From positions 124,001 through 188,000 of the forward strand of contig NZ_CP009123.1 of NCBI RefSeq assembly GCF_000803645.1: a DNA stretch of 64,000 nt, in the 5' to 3' direction. The position numbers and the translations under genes are program-made. The stretch comes from Sphingopyxis fribergensis (lineage in GTDB: Bacteria; Pseudomonadota; Alphaproteobacteria; Sphingomonadales; Sphingomonadaceae). The notes under the pieces are model-generated. The model made no database searches. It was not told where the DNA came from and was given only the letters and a program-made list of their open reading frames with translations. Position 1 is the stretch's first letter, and each line of letters opens with the position of its first letter. Positions 1,433-9,233 of the stretch are shown here, piece by piece.

Positions 1433-4400
1433 TCAATGAAAATTACGGCTTTTGACGAGTTCGGGGGCTGGCACCTGCGCCCTCCCCTTCCCCGATCGAG
1501 GATCGGGCCCGCCGCCACTCATTGCGCCATCGGCACGCCCCATGGCCAAGCGGAACGACACGTCGCGCTGAGTGAGCGTATCGAGCACGTCCGAAAGGTT
1601 CAAGAGCTTCTTCACGATCACGTGGACGACCTCGCCTTCGCGCTGGATCTGGCCATAAATGCCGAGCAGACGCGCCCCCATGACGATACGTCGATTTTCC
1701 TCGAACATGCGAGGCCAGACGATCAGATTGGCGATGCCCGTCTCGTCCTCGATGGTGATGAACATGACGCCCTTCGCCGATCCAGGCCGCTGGCGGACGA
1801 GGATGAGCCCGGCGAGCCAGACATAGCGGCCATCGCGAATCCCATCGAGCGTGCTGCAGGGAACCATCTTGCGGGCGGCAAGCTCGCTTCGCAGAAATGC
1901 CACCGGATGCTGCCGCAGGGTCAGGCCGACATGGCCATAATCCTCGACGACCTCCCTGCCCTCCTGCATCGGCGTGAGCAGCACCGGCTGCTCGACGATT
2001 TCATGGACGAAGCCATTCTCGCGTGCGTCGGCCGCGGCAAACAAGGGAAGCTGCTCGTCGCGCAGCGCCTTGATCGCCCACAGCGCATCGCGGCGCGCAA
2101 GGCGCATCCCCCCGCGGAAAGCGTCGGCCTCCGCCAGCCGGTTGAACGCGCCCATGCCGACGTCGGCGCGGCGCCATAGCTCCTCGATGCTGGCGAAGGG
2201 CTCATCGGCGCGCGCGGCGATGATCCGCGCGGCATCCTGTTCATTGAGGCCGCGCACCATCCGCATCCCCAAGCGGACCGCGAAACGATCCTCGCCTATC
2301 GGTTCGAGCGTGCAGTCCCAGCGCGATACGTTGATGCAAACCGGCCGTATCTCGACGCCGTGCGCCCGCGCGTCCTGCACGATCTGCGCCGGCGCATAGA
2401 ATCCCATCGGCTGCGCATTGAGGAGGCTGGCGCAGAAAATCTCCGGATGCCAGCATTTGAGCCAGCAGGACGCATAGGCGATGAGGGCGAAGCTCGCCGC
2501 ATGGCTTTCGGGAAAGCCGTAGCTTCCGAAGCCTTCGAGCTGGCTGAACGTCTTCTCCGCGAATTCTGCCGTGTAGCCGCGCTCGACCATGCCGGAGATC
2601 AGCTTCTCCTTGAACTTCGAGACCCCGCCGGTGTGCTTGAAGGTCGCCATTGCGCGGCGGAGTTGATCGGCTTCAGACGGCGTGAAGCCGGCGCATTCGA
2701 TCGCAACGCGCATCGCCTGTTCCTGGAAGAGAGGGACACCCAGCGTCTTGCCGAGCACCCGTTCCAGCTCGGGCTTGGGATATTCGACCTTCTCGGTGCC
2801 GGCGCGGCGACGAAGATAGGGATGAACCATGTCGCCCTGGATCGGCCCGGGGCGGACGATCGCGACTTCGATGACGAGATCGTAGAAGGTGCGCGGCTTG
2901 ATGTGCGGCAGCATCGCCATTTGCGCCCGGCTCTCGATCTGGAAGGCGCCGAGCGTGTCGGCCGCGCGGATCATCGCATAGGTGCGGGGATCTTCGGGCG
3001 GTATCGACACGAGATCCATCGCGATGCCCTTATGCTCGGCGAGCAGATCAAAACCGCCCTTCATCGCGGTGAGCATGCCGAGCGCGAGGCAGTCGACCTT
3101 CATGAATTTGAGCGCGTCGATATCGTCCTTGTCCCATTCGATCACCTGGCGATCCGGCATGGCAGCGGGCTCGATGGGGACGAGCTCGTCGAGCCGGTCA
3201 TGGGTCAGGACAAAGCCACCGGGATGTTGCGAGAGATGGCGGGGCGTGCCGATCAGCTGGCGCGCGAGATCGAGCGCGAGCCGCAGCCGGCGATCGCCGA
3301 GGTTAAGATTGAGCTCGGCCGCCTGCTTCTCGTCGACGCCCTCGTCGCTCCACCCCCAGACCTGGCTCGAGAGCGCCTTGATCAGATCCTCGGACAGGCC
3401 AAGCGCTTTACCGACATCGCGAATGGCGCCTTTCGTGCGATAGCGGATGACCGTGGAGCAGAGCGCAGCATGGTCGCGGCCATAGGTGTCGAACACCCAC
3501 TGCATGACGATCTCGCGCCGCGCATGCTCGAAGTCGACGTCGATGTCGGGCGGCTCCTTGCGCTCCTGGCTGACGAAACGCTCGAAGAGGAGGTCGGACC
3601 GTTCGGGGTCGATCGAGGTGATACCGAGGACATAGCAGACCGCACTGTTCGCCGCCGAGCCCCGGCCCTGGCAGAGGATGTCGCGGCTGCGCGCGAAGCG
3701 GACGATCGAGTTCACCGTCAGAAAATAGGGTGCATAATCGAGCTCGCCGATTAATCGGAGTTCGTGGCGGAGCAGCCGCGCGACCTTTTCGGGCACGCCT
3801 TCGGGATAACGATCCTCGGCCGCCTTCCATGTCATGTGTTCGAGCGCCTGCTGGGCAGTTGCCCCCTCGGTGCCGGCTTCCTCGGGATATTGATATTTGA
3901 GCTCGTCGAGCGAGAAGCGGCAACGATCGGCGATGTCGAGGGTTCGCGCGAGCGCTGCGGGATAGCGCTGGTAGAGCCGGTGCATTTCGGCTGCGGGCAT
4001 CAGGAAACGGTCGGCATAGCGTTCGCGCCGAGCGCCGAGCGCGTCGATCGTGCAGCGGTGGCGGGTGCAGGTCATGACCTCCTGGAGCACGCGGCGATGC
4101 GGATGATGATAGAGGACGTCGCCGGTGACGACGGTGGGAACCCGATGGCGGGCCGCGAGGTTCGTCAGATCATGGAGGCGAAGCTGATCGCCCGGGCGGC
4201 GGCGCAAGGTCAGGGCCAGATAGCCCCTCCCCTCGAAGATCCGCGCGAAACGGCCCAGCACGGCTTCGGTGTCGGCCACCTCGTCGGGCAGGAAGATCGC
4301 GAGCAGGTCTTCCGCGAACGCCTCGACATCCGCCCACCCGATCACGCACTTGCCCTTCCCTCCCCGCGTCTTTCCCCGGCTGAGGAGGCGGCAAAGACGG

Positions 4401-4657
4401 GCATAACCGGCGCGGTTCATCGGATAGACGAGCAGCGACTGGCCTTCGGAGAGGTCGAGGCGGCAGCCGACGATCAGCCGGACCCTGGCGAGCTTGGCCG
4501 CTTCATGGGCGCGCACGATGCCGGCAAGCGTATTTCGGTCGGTGATCGCAAGCGCGTCGAGGCCACAGGCTTCGGCCTGGGCGAAGAGTTCGTCAGGGGA
4601 CGACGCCCCGCGCAGGAACGAGAAATGCGACGCGCACTGGAGTTCGGCGTATCTCAT
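1433..4657 (-). CDS. dnaE2: Error-prone DNA polymerase DnaE2 (ImuC)
   Basis: This is a C-family polymerase of 1074 residues, the usual size for DnaE2/ImuC, the catalytic enzyme of the SOS mutasome. It begins with a PHP domain (from about residue 5), has [10 protein letters not shown] near 331, the catalytic acidic cluster PDIDVD (D371, D373, D375) and the third acid at KVD (D522). A clamp-binding-type motif QLPLF lies at 869-873. The frame is open 50 codons further upstream, but MRYAELQC is the family start and its ATG overlaps the imuB stop in an ATGA. It is the last gene of the imuA-imuB-dnaE2 operon and probably under the LexA box upstream of imuA. Confidence 0.96.
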
Positions 4658-6174
4658 GCGAACAGCCCGTGCAGGAACCAGCCTTGACCGCCCGTGGCGC
4701 TGTCCATGCCGTCGCCGTTCCGGAAGAGCCAATAGCGCGCGCCGGTTTCGTCCTCGACCTGGAAATAATCGCGAACGCCGAGAAATTCGGCGTCGTTCAA
4801 ATGCCATTCGCCATAGATGCGTTCAGGACCGTCGGCGCGCGTCACCCGGCGCCGGACGCCGCGCCAGACAAAATGCACGGGTGGATGGTCGGGCAGCAGG
4901 GCCATGGTATCGACGGGCTCGGGGCGTGCGAAAAGCCGCGCCGGGCGCGGCCAGGCAGCCGGCCACCGGGTCTCGGTCGGATCGGACATCGGCGCGATGC
5001 GGGCGACCGAACGCTCGGGAATATCGCTCTCGCGCGCGGCGGCCCGAAAGAGCCGCCCCTCCCCTATCCGGTTCCCGAGCAGGTCGACGAGGGCCGCGAC
5101 GTCGGGGACGGGAGCCTCGCCGAGATTTGAAACCATGTGGTAGGTCAGCGGTTCAGCCGCGGGGACGGTCAGCTGCATTCGCTCGACACCGAAACCCGGA
5201 TCGATGGTCTCAAGCCGGTCGCAGAGCAGCCGTGTCATCTGCCTGCGATCGCGGCTCGGCTTGGCAAGTCCGGCCCGAATAGCCTCGATGCGGTTATCGA
5301 CCCGGTGGAAGCTGAGGTCGAGTCGGCGTGCGCCGACGCCTTCCTCCTCCAGACGCCGGGCGAGTTCGTCGACCAGCTTACCCGTGTAGCGCGCGAGCGT
5401 TTCGGGCGCGCCGATCGGCTCGGCGAACCGCCGCTCGACGGTGATCGGCTCAGGCGGCTGGATCGGCTCGAAGGGTTCGGCGACGCGGCCGAAGGCCTGG
5501 TCGAGGCGCTGGCCGGGCGCAGACCCGAAGCGCAGGGCCAGCGACGCGCGCGGCATCGCCTCGAGGTCGGCGATTGTCTCAAGGCCGAGGCGCCCGAGAG
5601 TGAGCACCATGTCGGCGTCGAGGCGCAGCGCCGCGATGGGGAGCGCGCCGATCGCCGCCTTAAGTTCGAGCGGATCGACGACGCGCGCGGGACCGGCCCC
5701 ATAGCGCGCAAGCGCGTGCGCCGCGCCATAGGTCGGCGCGCAAACCGCGCGCGCGGTCGCCCCCACCTCCGCAAGGCGGTGGACGAGATCACGAAGGACG
5801 CCCTCAGGTCCGCCAAAGGCGTGCGCGGCGCCGGTGATGTCCAGCATCAGGCCATCGGGCGGATCGGCCGCGATGATGGGCGCGTAGCGGCGCAGCGACC
5901 AGCAGGCGAGCTTCTCCAGCGCGGCGCGATCGGCGTCCGGTTCGGCATCGAGGATCTGGAGATCGGGAACGAGCGCCTGTGCCTGCGCGACCGTCATACC
6001 TGGGACAAGACCGATCGCGCGCGCCGCCGCATTCGCCGCGGTCAGGAGACGGCGCTGCCCTTCCATCGCCGCCAGCACCAGCGGCGCGTCAGGAGGCGGC
6101 GCGCTGGAGCCAAGCCTGCGACGCAGCCGATCGGTCGGCCAGGTCGGCAGGAAGAGCGAGATGACCTGCCGCAT
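4654..6174 (-). CDS. imuB: ImuB, inactive Y-family polymerase-like mutasome subunit
   Basis: ImuB is a Y-family homologue without polymerase activity that links DnaE2 to the sliding clamp in damage-induced mutagenesis. The 506-residue product starts [12 protein letters not shown], typical of the family, and shows the Y-family-like palm segment around [15 protein letters not shown] and a little-finger region. The start at 6174 lies inside the 3' end of imuA, an overlap of 86 bases; a longer frame to 6234 is open but less typical. The stop overlaps the dnaE2 start, indicating tight coupling. I did not see an obvious clamp motif at the C-terminus. Confidence 0.93.
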
Positions 6175-6850
6175 CGCAGCCTTCCACGAGAAAATCGGCG
6201 CTCTCGCCAGCCCGGCACCGGATGAGCTCGACAAACCAGCGCGGCCGCCCGACCCCGGGAACCGGGAGCGGCGCGGTCGGCACGCTGGTCACGCGCCAGC
6301 GGGTCGCGGCCGCGGTCGGCTGTCCGAAATCGGAGGCTTCGGCCGTCCGGCGCCAGCGGCGGATGGCGATGCCGATGGTGCCGGTGCTTTCGGCCGCCAG
6401 TTGCAGACGGCGCGAGGCCGTCATCGAAAGCCGGGCCGCTTCGGCAACGACACCGCCGAGGCCGCCATGACGAAGCCCCTCCTCAAAGCAGCTCAGGAGC
6501 GAGGTCTCGTCGCGGGCTTCGACATAGATGACCCGGTCGGGATCGAGACCCGCGAGCGCGAGCGCCGGCGCGAACAGGTCGGACTGCGTCATGCACCAGA
6601 GTATCTTGCCTTTGACGCGCGCGAGAATGCCGGCAGCGAACAAGGCGGCGGCAGCCGCATCCGTCGCGCCTTGCGCGCCGCCGGCGACTTCATGGAGGGC
6701 GCCGAGCGCGAGCCCGCCACCAGGCAAGCGCCTGTCGATCGCGTCGAGCCCGAACGGCAAGGTGCCAGACGAGCGCCGTTCGGCCCCCTCGATCCTGGCG
6801 ATCCGGGCGCGTAGCGTCGTCAGATGAGGGCGCGGCCCTCTCTCCGTCAT
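6089..6850 (-). CDS. imuA: ImuA, RecA-like mutagenesis accessory protein
   Basis: A 253-residue RecA/SulA-like protein, first gene of the damage-inducible translesion operon. The segment LPFGLDAIDRRLPGGGLALGALHEV is the family's RecA-like core entry, and the C-terminal part (RWFVELIRCRAG) is also typical. The frame continues upstream to 7153, but MTERGPRPHLTTL at 6850 is the natural start: it lies 33 bases from the LexA box, and the longer version would run through that box and antisense to the next gene. In the family ImuA is thought to modulate the mutasome through RecA contacts. Confidence 0.92.
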   Translation of the reverse strand: MTERGPRPHLTTLRARIARIEGAERRSSGTLPFGLDAIDRRLPGGGLALGALHEVAGGAQGATDAAAAALFAAGILARVKGKILWCMTQSDLFAPALALAGLDPDRVIYVEARDETSLLSCFEEGLRHGGLGGVVAEAARLSMTASRRLQLAAESTGTIGIAIRRWRRTAEASDFGQPTAAATRWRVTSVPTAPLPVPGVGRPRWFVELIRCRAGESADFLVEGCDAAGHLALPADLADRSAASQAWLQRAAS

Positions 6851-6882: not shown

Positions 6883-6897
6883 GTTCTATTTTTGTTC
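6883..6897. promoter_or_regulatory. LexA (SOS) box, alphaproteobacterial type
   Basis: GTTC at 6883-6886, seven bases, then GTTC at 6894-6897: an exact match to the GTTC-N7-GTTC direct repeat bound by alphaproteobacterial LexA. It lies 33 bases upstream of the imuA ATG and 83 bases upstream of the rightward 53-residue ORF, so it may control both directions. Confidence 0.85.
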
Positions 6898-6980: not shown

Positions 6981-7142
6981 ATGGAGAAGCGCAAGCCACT
7001 CAAGCTTCGCCTGTCGGGCGAGACACCTTCGGAGGCTGTTGGCACGGCGGAGAGCGCCATGCGAGACCGCGACTCGGGCGAATCGGCAGCGGTCCAGACA
7101 CCGGATCTGGAGCCGATCACCGATGACGAGATTCCGTGGTGA
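6981..7142 (+). CDS. Small protein with SSB-like acidic C-terminal tip
   Basis: A 53-residue ORF starts at ATG 6981 with an AAGGA ribosome site about eight bases upstream, and stops nine bases before the SRAP gene. The N-terminus is basic (MEKRKPLKLRLSG), the middle is polar and probably disordered, and the last residues are ITDDEIPW. That ending closely resembles the acidic DDDIPF tip of single-stranded DNA-binding protein, which recruits repair enzymes. There is no OB fold, so it is not SSB. Inference: an SOS-regulated peptide that competes for, or recruits, SSB partners. Its coding status rests on the ribosome site, spacing and context. Confidence 0.7.
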   Translation: MEKRKPLKLRLSGETPSEAVGTAESAMRDRDSGESAAVQTPDLEPITDDEIPW

Positions 7143-7151
7143 GTTGAGGCC

Positions 7152-7808
7152 ATGTCGCGGCTTCATGTCATCACGGCGAGCGCGAGCGATGTGGCGGCTT
7201 ATTTCGAAGCCGAGCCGCCATCCGGCCTCACGACGCCCGAAGGGGACATCAAGGAAGGACTGACCGGACTCGTCATTTTCGAGAAGGACGGCCGCCGATT
7301 GCTGCGGCCCGTCACCTGGGGCTTTCCGCGCCTGACCCGCGAAATGCGCGAGCGCGGCGAGCCGCCGGGGCGCATCGGGCTTGTCGCTGACCTCACCAAT
7401 CCGATGTGGGAAGAGATGGTGGTGGAGCCGCGCTATCGCTGTCTCATCGCGCTGACCCATTTCGGCAATCCCGACGGGACGCCGGGTGCGATGACTCGGA
7501 CCTGGTTTTCGGTGAAAGATCAGCCGATCATGGCCTGGGCGGGTTTCTGCCGGAGCTTGCCCGACCAGGGGCCGGTCTATGCGGGCATGACGATGAGTGC
7601 GAATGCGGCGGTCATGCCGACTAACGACCGGATGCCGGTGCTCCTTGAGCGCGCCGAGTGGGATCAGTGGTTTCGTGGCTCCGTTCGCGAAGTAATTGGG
7701 TTCCAGTTCCGCCCGCCGTTCGCCGCCGAACGAATGATCGTCGAGCCGACCGATGATCGCTGGAACAGCGGCAAAGGGCCACCCGAGCCGCAACTCGCTT
7801 TGCAATGA
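7152..7808 (+). CDS. SRAP (YedK/HMCES) family protein lacking the catalytic residues
   Basis: 218 residues with the SRAP fold signatures (WGFP, PMWEE, RCLI, TRTWFS, NDRMPVLL), the family that crosslinks to abasic sites in single-stranded DNA. It aligns without gaps over the first 160 residues with the second SRAP protein here (8583-9233), but Cys2 is Ser, the Asn near 76-77 is Gly-Leu, Glu106 is Asn and His158 is Asn. All the known catalytic positions are lost, so self-proteolytic and crosslinking activity should be absent. It sits nine bases after the SSB-tip ORF, probably in the same SOS-responsive unit. It may keep DNA binding or act as a regulator of its intact paralogue. Confidence 0.88.
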   Translation: MSRLHVITASASDVAAYFEAEPPSGLTTPEGDIKEGLTGLVIFEKDGRRLLRPVTWGFPRLTREMRERGEPPGRIGLVADLTNPMWEEMVVEPRYRCLIALTHFGNPDGTPGAMTRTWFSVKDQPIMAWAGFCRSLPDQGPVYAGMTMSANAAVMPTNDRMPVLLERAEWDQWFRGSVREVIGFQFRPPFAAERMIVEPTDDRWNSGKGPPEPQLALQ

Positions 7809-7860
7809 GACGGCGATTGTATGGCACGTTGGATGCTCGCGCGGGAGGCTTCTCGCCGCT

Positions 7861-8475
7861 ATGGGCATGACAATGCCCGATAGAGACATGCTGCCGCGCA
7901 CGTTCCAGGCGAACGTTGACCGCTTTTATCAGCGCGTCATCCTGAAGACGCTTGGTGACCTTCCGACGCACGAAACGCTGGTTGTGGGCGAAGCGTCAGA
8001 TATGGATGAATTCCTTGATCGGTGCGCCGCGCAAATCGATAACTACACGGCCAACGAGGCCGCCAAGGCCTTTGTCCTCACGCTCGACGGGCTGTTCGAA
8101 CGCCAGCTCGCGCGGTGGGCTCGGGCGCACGGCGTGAAGTTCTCTGGCGCAACCGATCTGTCACGAGCAGCGCGGGAAATCGCTGCGATCGATGTGGGTG
8201 CGATCGGCGTGGCAAGCGATCTCCACGAAATGCACCTCGCCGCCAATGTCGCTAGGCATGGCGATGGCGGCGCCTGCACGAAATTGCTCGCGAAGGCCCC
8301 GCAACTCTGGACTCGGATATCCTTCGATTATGACGATATCGCCCCCGCGCCGGTGCCGACGAGTGAGGAGCTGCGGATCGGTCAGGACGAACTTCGGCGC
8401 TATGCACGCGCCGTTGTTCAATTCTGGGGCCACGCCGATCCCCTGCCCGGTGCCGTGCTTGTTGCGCCTTATTGA
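7861..8475 (+). CDS. Hypothetical protein between the two SRAP genes
   Basis: A product of about 204 residues; the start could be the ATG at 7861, 7867 or 7873, none with a strong ribosome site. It is predicted mostly helical. A region near the middle (LHEMHLAANVARHGDG) has an Asn-x3-His-Gly-Asp-Gly arrangement that recalls helical HEPN-type proteins, but this is only a resemblance and I assign no function. Being enclosed by two SRAP genes in the same direction suggests a role in DNA-damage handling or replicon defence. Confidence 0.6.
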   Translation: MGMTMPDRDMLPRTFQANVDRFYQRVILKTLGDLPTHETLVVGEASDMDEFLDRCAAQIDNYTANEAAKAFVLTLDGLFERQLARWARAHGVKFSGATDLSRAAREIAAIDVGAIGVASDLHEMHLAANVARHGDGGACTKLLAKAPQLWTRISFDYDDIAPAPVPTSEELRIGQDELRRYARAVVQFWGHADPLPGAVLVAPY

Positions 8476-8582: not shown

Positions 8583-9233
8583 ATGTGCAATCTCTATACG
8601 GAGCGCCTCAGCGCCGCTGAAGTCGCAGCCCACTTTGGCGTAGACGTTCCTGACATCGTTGCAACTAATGCACCGTCGACAGTTCACCCCGGCGCGCCCG
8701 GTATGGTGGTCCGCGCCGAAAGCGGTCGACGAATTCTTCAATCGATGGGTTGGGGATTTCCTCTGAAGCTAGCCTCGATGAAGCCGGGTTCGAAGCCCAA
8801 GGCGGTTAATAATATTGCGGATCTGCGCAAACCAATGTGGGTGGGCCTCGCCCGTAAACCGCAGTGGCGCTGCCTGATTCCGCTAACGGCCTGGGCGGAA
8901 CCCGCGGGGATCAAGGGAAGCAAAACCCGAACCTGGCTGTCGCTGAAAGACCGTCCGGTTTTTGCATGGGGCGGCTTGTGGCGGGACAGTGCCGAATGGG
9001 GTCCGGTCTATTCGGGCGCCATGACCGATGCGAACGAAGTTGCCGCGACAGTCCATAATCGGATGCCTGTCCTCCTCCACGAGGACGAATATGACCGTTG
9101 GCTTCACGGTACCTTCGATGAGCTGACCGCGCTTCAGGATCGGGTGTTTCCGAGCAGACTAATTGAGATCGAGCCGACCGACGAACCATGGCACGGTTGG
9201 CCCTCAGACATGCTGCAGGCAACGTTGCTATAG
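8583..9233 (+). CDS. SRAP domain protein (YedK/HMCES type), catalytically intact
   Basis: 216 residues, starting MCNLYT. SRAP proteins remove their Met1 so that Cys2 forms a thiazolidine link with abasic sites in single-stranded DNA, shielding them. Cys2, Asn76/77 (AVNNIADL), Glu106 (AWAEPAG) and His158 (VHNRMPV) sit at or near the positions known to be needed. It is longer-spaced from its neighbour (107 bases) and could have its own promoter. Together with DnaE2 it would offer both tolerance and protection at lesions. Confidence 0.93.
   Translation: MCNLYTERLSAAEVAAHFGVDVPDIVATNAPSTVHPGAPGMVVRAESGRRILQSMGWGFPLKLASMKPGSKPKAVNNIADLRKPMWVGLARKPQWRCLIPLTAWAEPAGIKGSKTRTWLSLKDRPVFAWGGLWRDSAEWGPVYSGAMTDANEVAATVHNRMPVLLHEDEYDRWLHGTFDELTALQDRVFPSRLIEIEPTDEPWHGWPSDMLQATLL

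Follow-up and report, generated by a model that had tools for sequence, protein, structure and literature searches.

A small protein family with an SSB-type C-terminal tip next to SOS mutasome and SRAP genes in Sphingomonadaceae

Introduction

The C-terminal tip of the bacterial single-strand DNA-binding protein (SSB), i.e. DDDIPF, is a known docking motif, and the tip of the E. coli SSB recruits at least 17 different proteins, as stated in the abstract of PMC10018359. The same paper describes that an SSB-tip peptide supplied in trans raises the affinity of RecO for ssDNA, stabilises RecR4O, and stimulates the ATPase of RadD, and that RecQ is stimulated by binding of the SSB tip. SRAP or SRAP-like proteins have been linked to error-prone polymerases in the consulted parts of PMC3765255 and PMC12926913, and Cys2 is called absolutely conserved in SRAP in the former. 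The literature searched, mostly titles and abstract openings, contained neither a natural free-standing SSB-tip microprotein nor a dead SRAP of the kind described below.

We analysed a 64-kb stretch of DNA from Sphingopyxis fribergensis (the window), which lies on a contig of 208,588 bp with Rep3, ParA-like, and ParB-like genes. It contains the same ImuA-ImuB-DnaE2/SRAP SOS neighbourhood as described in Aravind 2013 (PMC3765255) and in PMC12926913; the SRAP neighbourhoods in the passages of these two papers used here include no tip microprotein. A first-pass annotation had interpreted a small ORF of the window as a free-standing mimic of the SSB tip that would compete for the SSB-partner pocket, and this interpretation as a whole is partly supported by the analyses reported here. 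Like the bacterial SSB, the microprotein has an acidic C-terminus with an [IV]P-aromatic end on a disordered stretch, and similar tips are found on SSBs, i.e. DDEIPF in five order-level relatives and DDDIPW on phage SSBs. Unlike SSB, it has no OB-fold match and no DNA-binding core, its last residue is Trp, and it is encoded in an SOS locus. It shares a free tip without an SSB body with the synthetic SSB-tip peptides that were used on RecO and RadD (PMC10018359, passages as above), but these are laboratory reagents, whereas the microprotein is encoded by a natural gene and has a second conserved end.

Results

The ORF at positions 6981–7142 (plus strand) has an ATG start, which is preceded by the purine-rich sequence AAGGAAAA, and encodes a product of 53 aa (MEKRKPLKLRL...ITDDEIPW). 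The ORF list and the translation bear out the TDDEIPW end that had been reported for it. The respective gene is the first one before a SRAP gene (SRAP1), and homologues and codon-level selection define a family, termed family A. Two parts of the protein stand out, i.e. the SSB-type tip DDEIPW (7122–7139, plus strand), identified by its pattern, the lowest pN window, and the genome background, and a basic/hydrophobic N-terminal motif, KRKPLKLRL (6987–7013, plus strand), which alignment and codon analysis showed to be partly conserved and to be [RK][RK]KLSL[RK]-like in relatives. The window protein matched neither Pfam nor NCBIfam (E<=1), so that no known domain was found. Pfam scans of three family-A members likewise returned nothing at E<=1, the OB-fold ssDNA-binding domain (SSB, PF00436) included. 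An AlphaFold monomer model with a nine-sequence input had a pLDDT of 65 and a pTM of 0.15 and contained no helix of 4 and no strand of 3 residues. The earlier view that the protein has no DNA-binding fold is in agreement with the missing Pfam/NCBIfam matches at E<=1 and with the missing predicted fold.

To the criterion for SSB tips, an acidic C-terminal tip with an [IV]P-aromatic end, the microprotein conforms with Trp instead of Phe as the aromatic residue. For comparison, the three SSBs of the host end DDDVPF, DDDIPF, and DDDHVPF, and the SSB with the DDDHVPF tip is encoded on the contig that also contains the window. The pattern D[DE][DE][IV]PF followed by a stop codon retrieved 17 ORFs from 17 genomes (the host and 16 relatives), and 16 of the 17 are SSBs; five of these 16, all from order-level relatives, end DDEIPF. 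Because 16 of 17 such ORFs are SSBs, the IPF/VPF tip is almost an SSB signature in this clade. The claimed likeness to DDDIPF holds for the SSB type of the tip, but not for its last residue, which is Trp and not Phe. The single non-SSB-like ORF of the 17 (L253, G004:C4:159519) ends DVDDEVPF and was not matched when one host SSB was used as the query.

The specificity of the Trp-ended tip was assessed with the pattern D[DE][DE]IPW plus stop, without any further condition. The window contains one match, versus 0 in 100 shuffles. The 397 Sphingomonadaceae genomes contain six matches in five genomes, and all six are in SOS loci; four of them adjoin imuA and/or SRAP1 (G000, G297, and two in G312), and the remaining two (L070 and L067) belong to a different operon of the SRAP-alkB type. 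A reversed control pattern had 0 occurrences among the matches listed for the 397 family genomes. In a class-wide sample of 385 genomes, the host genome was the sole match; the other 384, four of them family members, had none. The shuffles, the family scan, and the class scan together rule out a chance tail.

The same pattern is common on phage proteins. The scan of phage contigs yielded at least 120 loci (L073–L192), of which six continue past the tip, with TGG in place of the stop codon, and four lack an in-frame start codon, leaving 110 proteins. Among the matches listed, 31/110 have a Pfam SSB match (21/76 plus 10/34), and the Trp-ended tip thus occurs naturally on phage SSBs. The other 79 of the 110 proteins among the matches listed have no Pfam SSB match, which indicates that the IPW tip is also common on phage proteins beyond classical SSBs and that the tip alone proves neither descent from SSB nor function. 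PHROGs were assigned for the first 76 phage proteins only: some members without a Pfam SSB match belong to families named single-strand DNA binding, and the largest such family besides phrog_44, which has 21 members, comprises 15. Many other IPW-tipped phage proteins are small, and some have no annotated function. The small ones (PHROG 18154, 7364, and others) resemble the microprotein in size and tip, and many of them have no Pfam SSB match; they differ, in this comparison of the proteins themselves, in that several match PHROG families named ssDNA-binding.

Relatives of the microprotein were found via the SRAP1 neighbour, the homologue in strain V4, and the tip pattern. Profile and sequence searches together revealed 15 loci of family A in 13 Sphingomonadaceae genomes, and the frame is intact in 13 of the 15 loci. 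At E<=1, 35 of 99 genomes were listed in a sequence search that covered 60 members of the genus of the window; three at E<1e-28 were kept, and the rows with E 0.047 or worse were dropped. These three are G000, G004, and G006 (3/60 genus members). The genus of G297, with the named members Sphingobium TKS and V4, contributes 12 loci, which are spread over 10 of 94 genomes. The profile search of the 397 family genomes was convincing in G000, G297, and G312 only, and six others had E values of 7e-4 to 8e-3. A tblastn search of the window protein against plasmids returned five records with E values of 2–6, which were taken as chance. The 15 loci do not include a match on a plasmid of Sphingobium fuliginis (H69). 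Four Sphingopyxis contigs (L051–L054) have near-identical loci with the same protein; at least two of them equal G004 and G006, and all four were left out of the locus count. Minus-strand loci (e.g. L023 and L032) were left out of the neighbourhood reading in the initial locus listings.

The tip is kept as D[DN]E[IV]PW in all 15 loci, with the variants DNEIPW in G006 and DDEVPW in G1065 and G1051, and the relatives adjoin imuA and/or SRAP; the first-pass annotation had proposed to look for homologues in precisely this neighbourhood and to regard the loss of the acidic, hydrophobic-ended tail as evidence against its reading, which has thus survived this check. At two of the 15 loci (G1110, L213; G312 contig C13, L215), the N-terminal motif and the tail are in different frames, reflecting either decay or an assembly error. 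When nine members were aligned by codons, the last six codons had a pN/pS of 0.029, against 0.742 for everything outside the tail; the N-terminal motif had a value of 0.28. This alignment includes two near-identical pairs, and one member of each was dropped to obtain a set of seven. With the seven members, the last six codons have a pN of 0.019 and a pS of 1.05, and their pN is the lowest of 51 six-codon windows. Within the first half, pN is lowest (0.20) at the N-terminal motif, and low values are likewise found in the windows overlapping the tip; the codon windows show that the middle of the protein changes freely. Five of the six tip codons (all but TGG) vary synonymously while the protein is unchanged, as would be expected of a peptide that is translated and under selection. 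By these codon data, family A is a real gene family with a tail under protein-level selection, and the evolution of the codons points to translation of the microprotein.

The SOS neighbourhood that had been noted for the ORF was confirmed: SRAP1 lies 9 nt downstream, and imuA-imuB-dnaE2 are divergent. A pattern scan detected a LexA/SOS box (GTTC-N7-GTTC) at 6883–6897, in the stretch that separates imuA from the ORF; the SOS box of Caulobacter is GTTCN7GTTC according to the consulted part of PMC9578287. One match in the window versus 1.84 expected (shuffle mean) is not significant alone. A box is present, however, in all 15 loci, and its distance to the end of the tail is 259–263 nt in 13 of them; the two remaining loci have distances of 271 nt and 231 nt (two boxes). 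Judged from these sequences, the position of the box is telling. On the minus strand follow imuA (6089–6850, with an ATG at 6850 and 253 aa; ImuA model NF033429 with E 1.5e-18, below the curated cut-off), imuB (4654–6174, start codon inferred; IMS and IMS_C), and dnaE2 (1433–4807, the limits of the ORF, with a true start that may be downstream; tblastn match to the L059 gene annotated as error-prone DNA polymerase).

The fullest gene order is imuA, SOS box, microprotein, SRAP1, AlkB-like dioxygenase, and SRAP2, with imuA divergent from all other genes. As in the window, imuA is the next divergent gene in 11 of the 14 other loci; in L211 and L212 it lies at a distance of about 1.6 kb, and in L216 the contig ends. 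AlkB is present in nine of the 14 other family-A loci and absent from L059, L214, L217, L218, and L219; it was also looked for in the window and not found. A 240-aa ORF without a Pfam match (7753–8475) lies between the two SRAP genes of the window, where many relatives have alkB. The start of SRAP1 is 5–14 nt after the microprotein gene in eight of the 15 loci and 383–1795 nt after it in seven. In 13 loci with SRAP1 (L229–L235, L238, L061–L064, and L066), no family-A tip protein was found, even with a relaxed tail pattern, and the microprotein gene is therefore an optional first gene. Two of these 13 SRAP1 are partial (L235 and L238), and the SOS box directly precedes SRAP1 in nine of the 13.

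Both SRAP genes of the window were identified by Pfam and alignment. In SRAP1 (7152–7808, plus strand; PF02586), the active-site residues are replaced (as aligned, C2S, N to L, E to N, and H to N), whereas C2, N, E, and H are intact in SRAP2 (8583–9233, plus strand). The YedK residues used for this comparison were taken from the consulted part of PMC9436759. None of the 19 aligned SRAP1 proteins has kept any of the YedK-type Cys2/Asn/Glu/His residues (S, L or M, N, and N instead), and all four are present in 11 of 11 aligned SRAP2 proteins. As judged from the alignments, the catalytic residues have been lost from SRAP1, a conserved paralogue within the SRAP family that is encoded beside an intact SRAP2. 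SRAP1 differs in its lack of Cys2 from SRAP as described in the passages of PMC3765255 used here.

The C-terminus of the window SRAP1, QLALQ (7791–7805, plus strand; QLALL, QLALI, or QMALL in relatives), resembles the sliding-clamp-binding motif in the alignment, and the form Q[LM]AL[LIQ] is present in 11 of 16 aligned sphingomonad sequences and absent from three rhizobial ones. Sliding-clamp-binding motifs are of the QLxLF/QLxLxL type. The N-terminal KLSLRL-like element of the microprotein lacks the Gln of this motif. TKS-type microproteins (L214:5274-5432; TKS plasmid L059:4044-4205) contain QADLF in the linker, which resembles the clamp motif of DNA polymerase III.

A second small protein of 102–103 aa (family B) ends LIDDEIPW in L070:1213-1521 and L067:1501-1812. 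Its gene is located between a SRAP-like ORF and alkB, with an SOS box upstream and imuA nearby. The SRAP-like ORF has a Pfam match over positions 92–192 of 214, and its likely start after the box (MDSATPF) is without Cys2. In a profile comparison, families A and B align over the last nine columns only. The chromosome of the host encodes a family-B copy of 102 aa (L241, G000:C1:173388-173690) that ends MDDEIPS, in an operon that adjoins a second imuA-imuB-dnaE2. The DDEIPS end is evidence against a strict need for the aromatic residue in family B, in which two of three keep it. In Sphingopyxis granuli TFA, a SRAP-alkB pair and imuABdnaE2 are up 8–12 fold in anaerobic growth, according to the passages of PMC6472365 used here; this response is only an analogue of induction by DNA damage.

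Discussion

A gene family, selection on its tip, a position behind an SOS box and within an operon, and the absence of a predicted fold were observed, and they form the basis of the following model. The disordered microprotein would be induced together with SRAP1 and the ImuA-ImuB-DnaE2 mutasome upon release of LexA. Its C-terminal DDEIPW would dock in the SSB-tip pocket of SSB-interacting repair proteins of the RecO, RecQ, ExoI, RadD, or PriA type; this putative fit is drawn from the established biology of SSB. The basic KKLSL-type N-terminus, about 30 variable residues away from the tip, may hold a partner at the damaged fork, with the sliding clamp, SRAP1, the mutasome, and DNA as candidates. 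The tip would then hold, and perhaps allosterically switch, one SSB-partner enzyme independently of SSB, a direction of effect that is itself conjectural, as is the identity of both partners. Two conserved ends flank a variable, disordered linker, and therefore a bivalent tether is favoured more than a plug. Conservation of the basic N-terminus points to a second partner, which makes an adaptor at least as likely as a competitor. We favour an SOS-induced bivalent adaptor or tether, with the tip in an SSB-partner pocket and the N-terminus on a second partner, over a pure competitor, and give it about even chances of being correct.

As a pure competitor, an abundant SOS peptide would occupy the pocket for the SSB tip in at least one enzyme of recombination or nuclease type, keep such enzymes off SSB-coated DNA, and thereby favour translesion synthesis. 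The tip as the most conserved element, the predicted disorder of the rest of the protein, and a first gene behind an SOS box and beside mutasome genes are all compatible with such a role. However, simple competition has no need of the conserved N-terminal motif, and a monovalent peptide would have to reach high levels against SSB tips, which are multivalent and abundant. An SSB-tip peptide can also stimulate its targets (PMC10018359, passages as above). We regard pure competition as rather unlikely. The tip might instead bind within its own operon, to the pocket of the dead SRAP1 or to AlkB, and the resemblance to SSB would then reflect shared chemistry and not mimicry. This is suggested by the presence of the tip on two families that share nothing but the tip and are both located beside a Cys2-less SRAP and often alkB (AlkB in 9/14 family-A loci and in the family-B loci). 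It is difficult to reconcile with the distance of 1795 nt to SRAP1 in the TKS/G297 type, with the absence of AlkB from this type, L217, L218, and the window, with the close match of the tip to SSB tips, and with the 13 SRAP1 loci devoid of a family-A gene, which show that SRAP1 does not need the microprotein. We regard an operon-internal target as improbable.

Two further explanations would deprive the peptide of a role of its own. The ORF could be an upstream leader that serves translational coupling or regulation of SRAP1, with an unimportant peptide, as would be compatible with the stop codon 5–14 nt before SRAP1 in eight loci and the little constrained middle of the peptide. Protein-level selection on both ends, the far-downstream SRAP1 in the other seven loci, and the recurrence of the tip on another protein make this very improbable. 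Lastly, descent from a decayed SSB gene, or chance alone, could account for an SSB-type tip and for two copies that are out of frame, but no Pfam match was found in the three family-A members scanned, the tip codons vary synonymously while the protein is kept, and all six pattern matches are in SOS loci. The selection pattern contradicts an SSB remnant, and we give this explanation hardly any credence.

Several observations were also counted against the adaptor that we favour. Trp is found in place of the Phe of the host SSBs, and 79 of the 110 phage proteins among the matches listed carry the tip without a Pfam SSB match. In addition, there are two frame-split loci, the family-B copy ends DDEIPS, the gene is optional, and the N-terminal element lacks the clamp Gln. 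In the text of one inhibitor-design paper, neither Trp nor tryptophan occurs.

The docking motif itself is known, and phages place the tip on several types of protein; its use on a microprotein of an SOS locus is new, judged by the literature searched. Tentatively, and with somewhat less than even confidence, we propose that the free-standing SSB tip in sphingomonads is an SOS-inducible, trans-acting regulator or tether, in which two linear motifs would take an SSB-partner enzyme away from SSB and hand it to the ImuA-ImuB-DnaE2/SRAP repair assembly, and that at least two small SOS-operon proteins with nothing else in common have acquired the tip. The dead SRAP1 beside the microprotein is a second, unexplained candidate recruiter. 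If the proposal is true, a natural SSB-tip peptide encoded in a mutasome locus would switch the cell between recombination and translesion synthesis in a way that can be tested directly, and the microprotein would be a natural model for inhibitors that act at the SSB-tip site.
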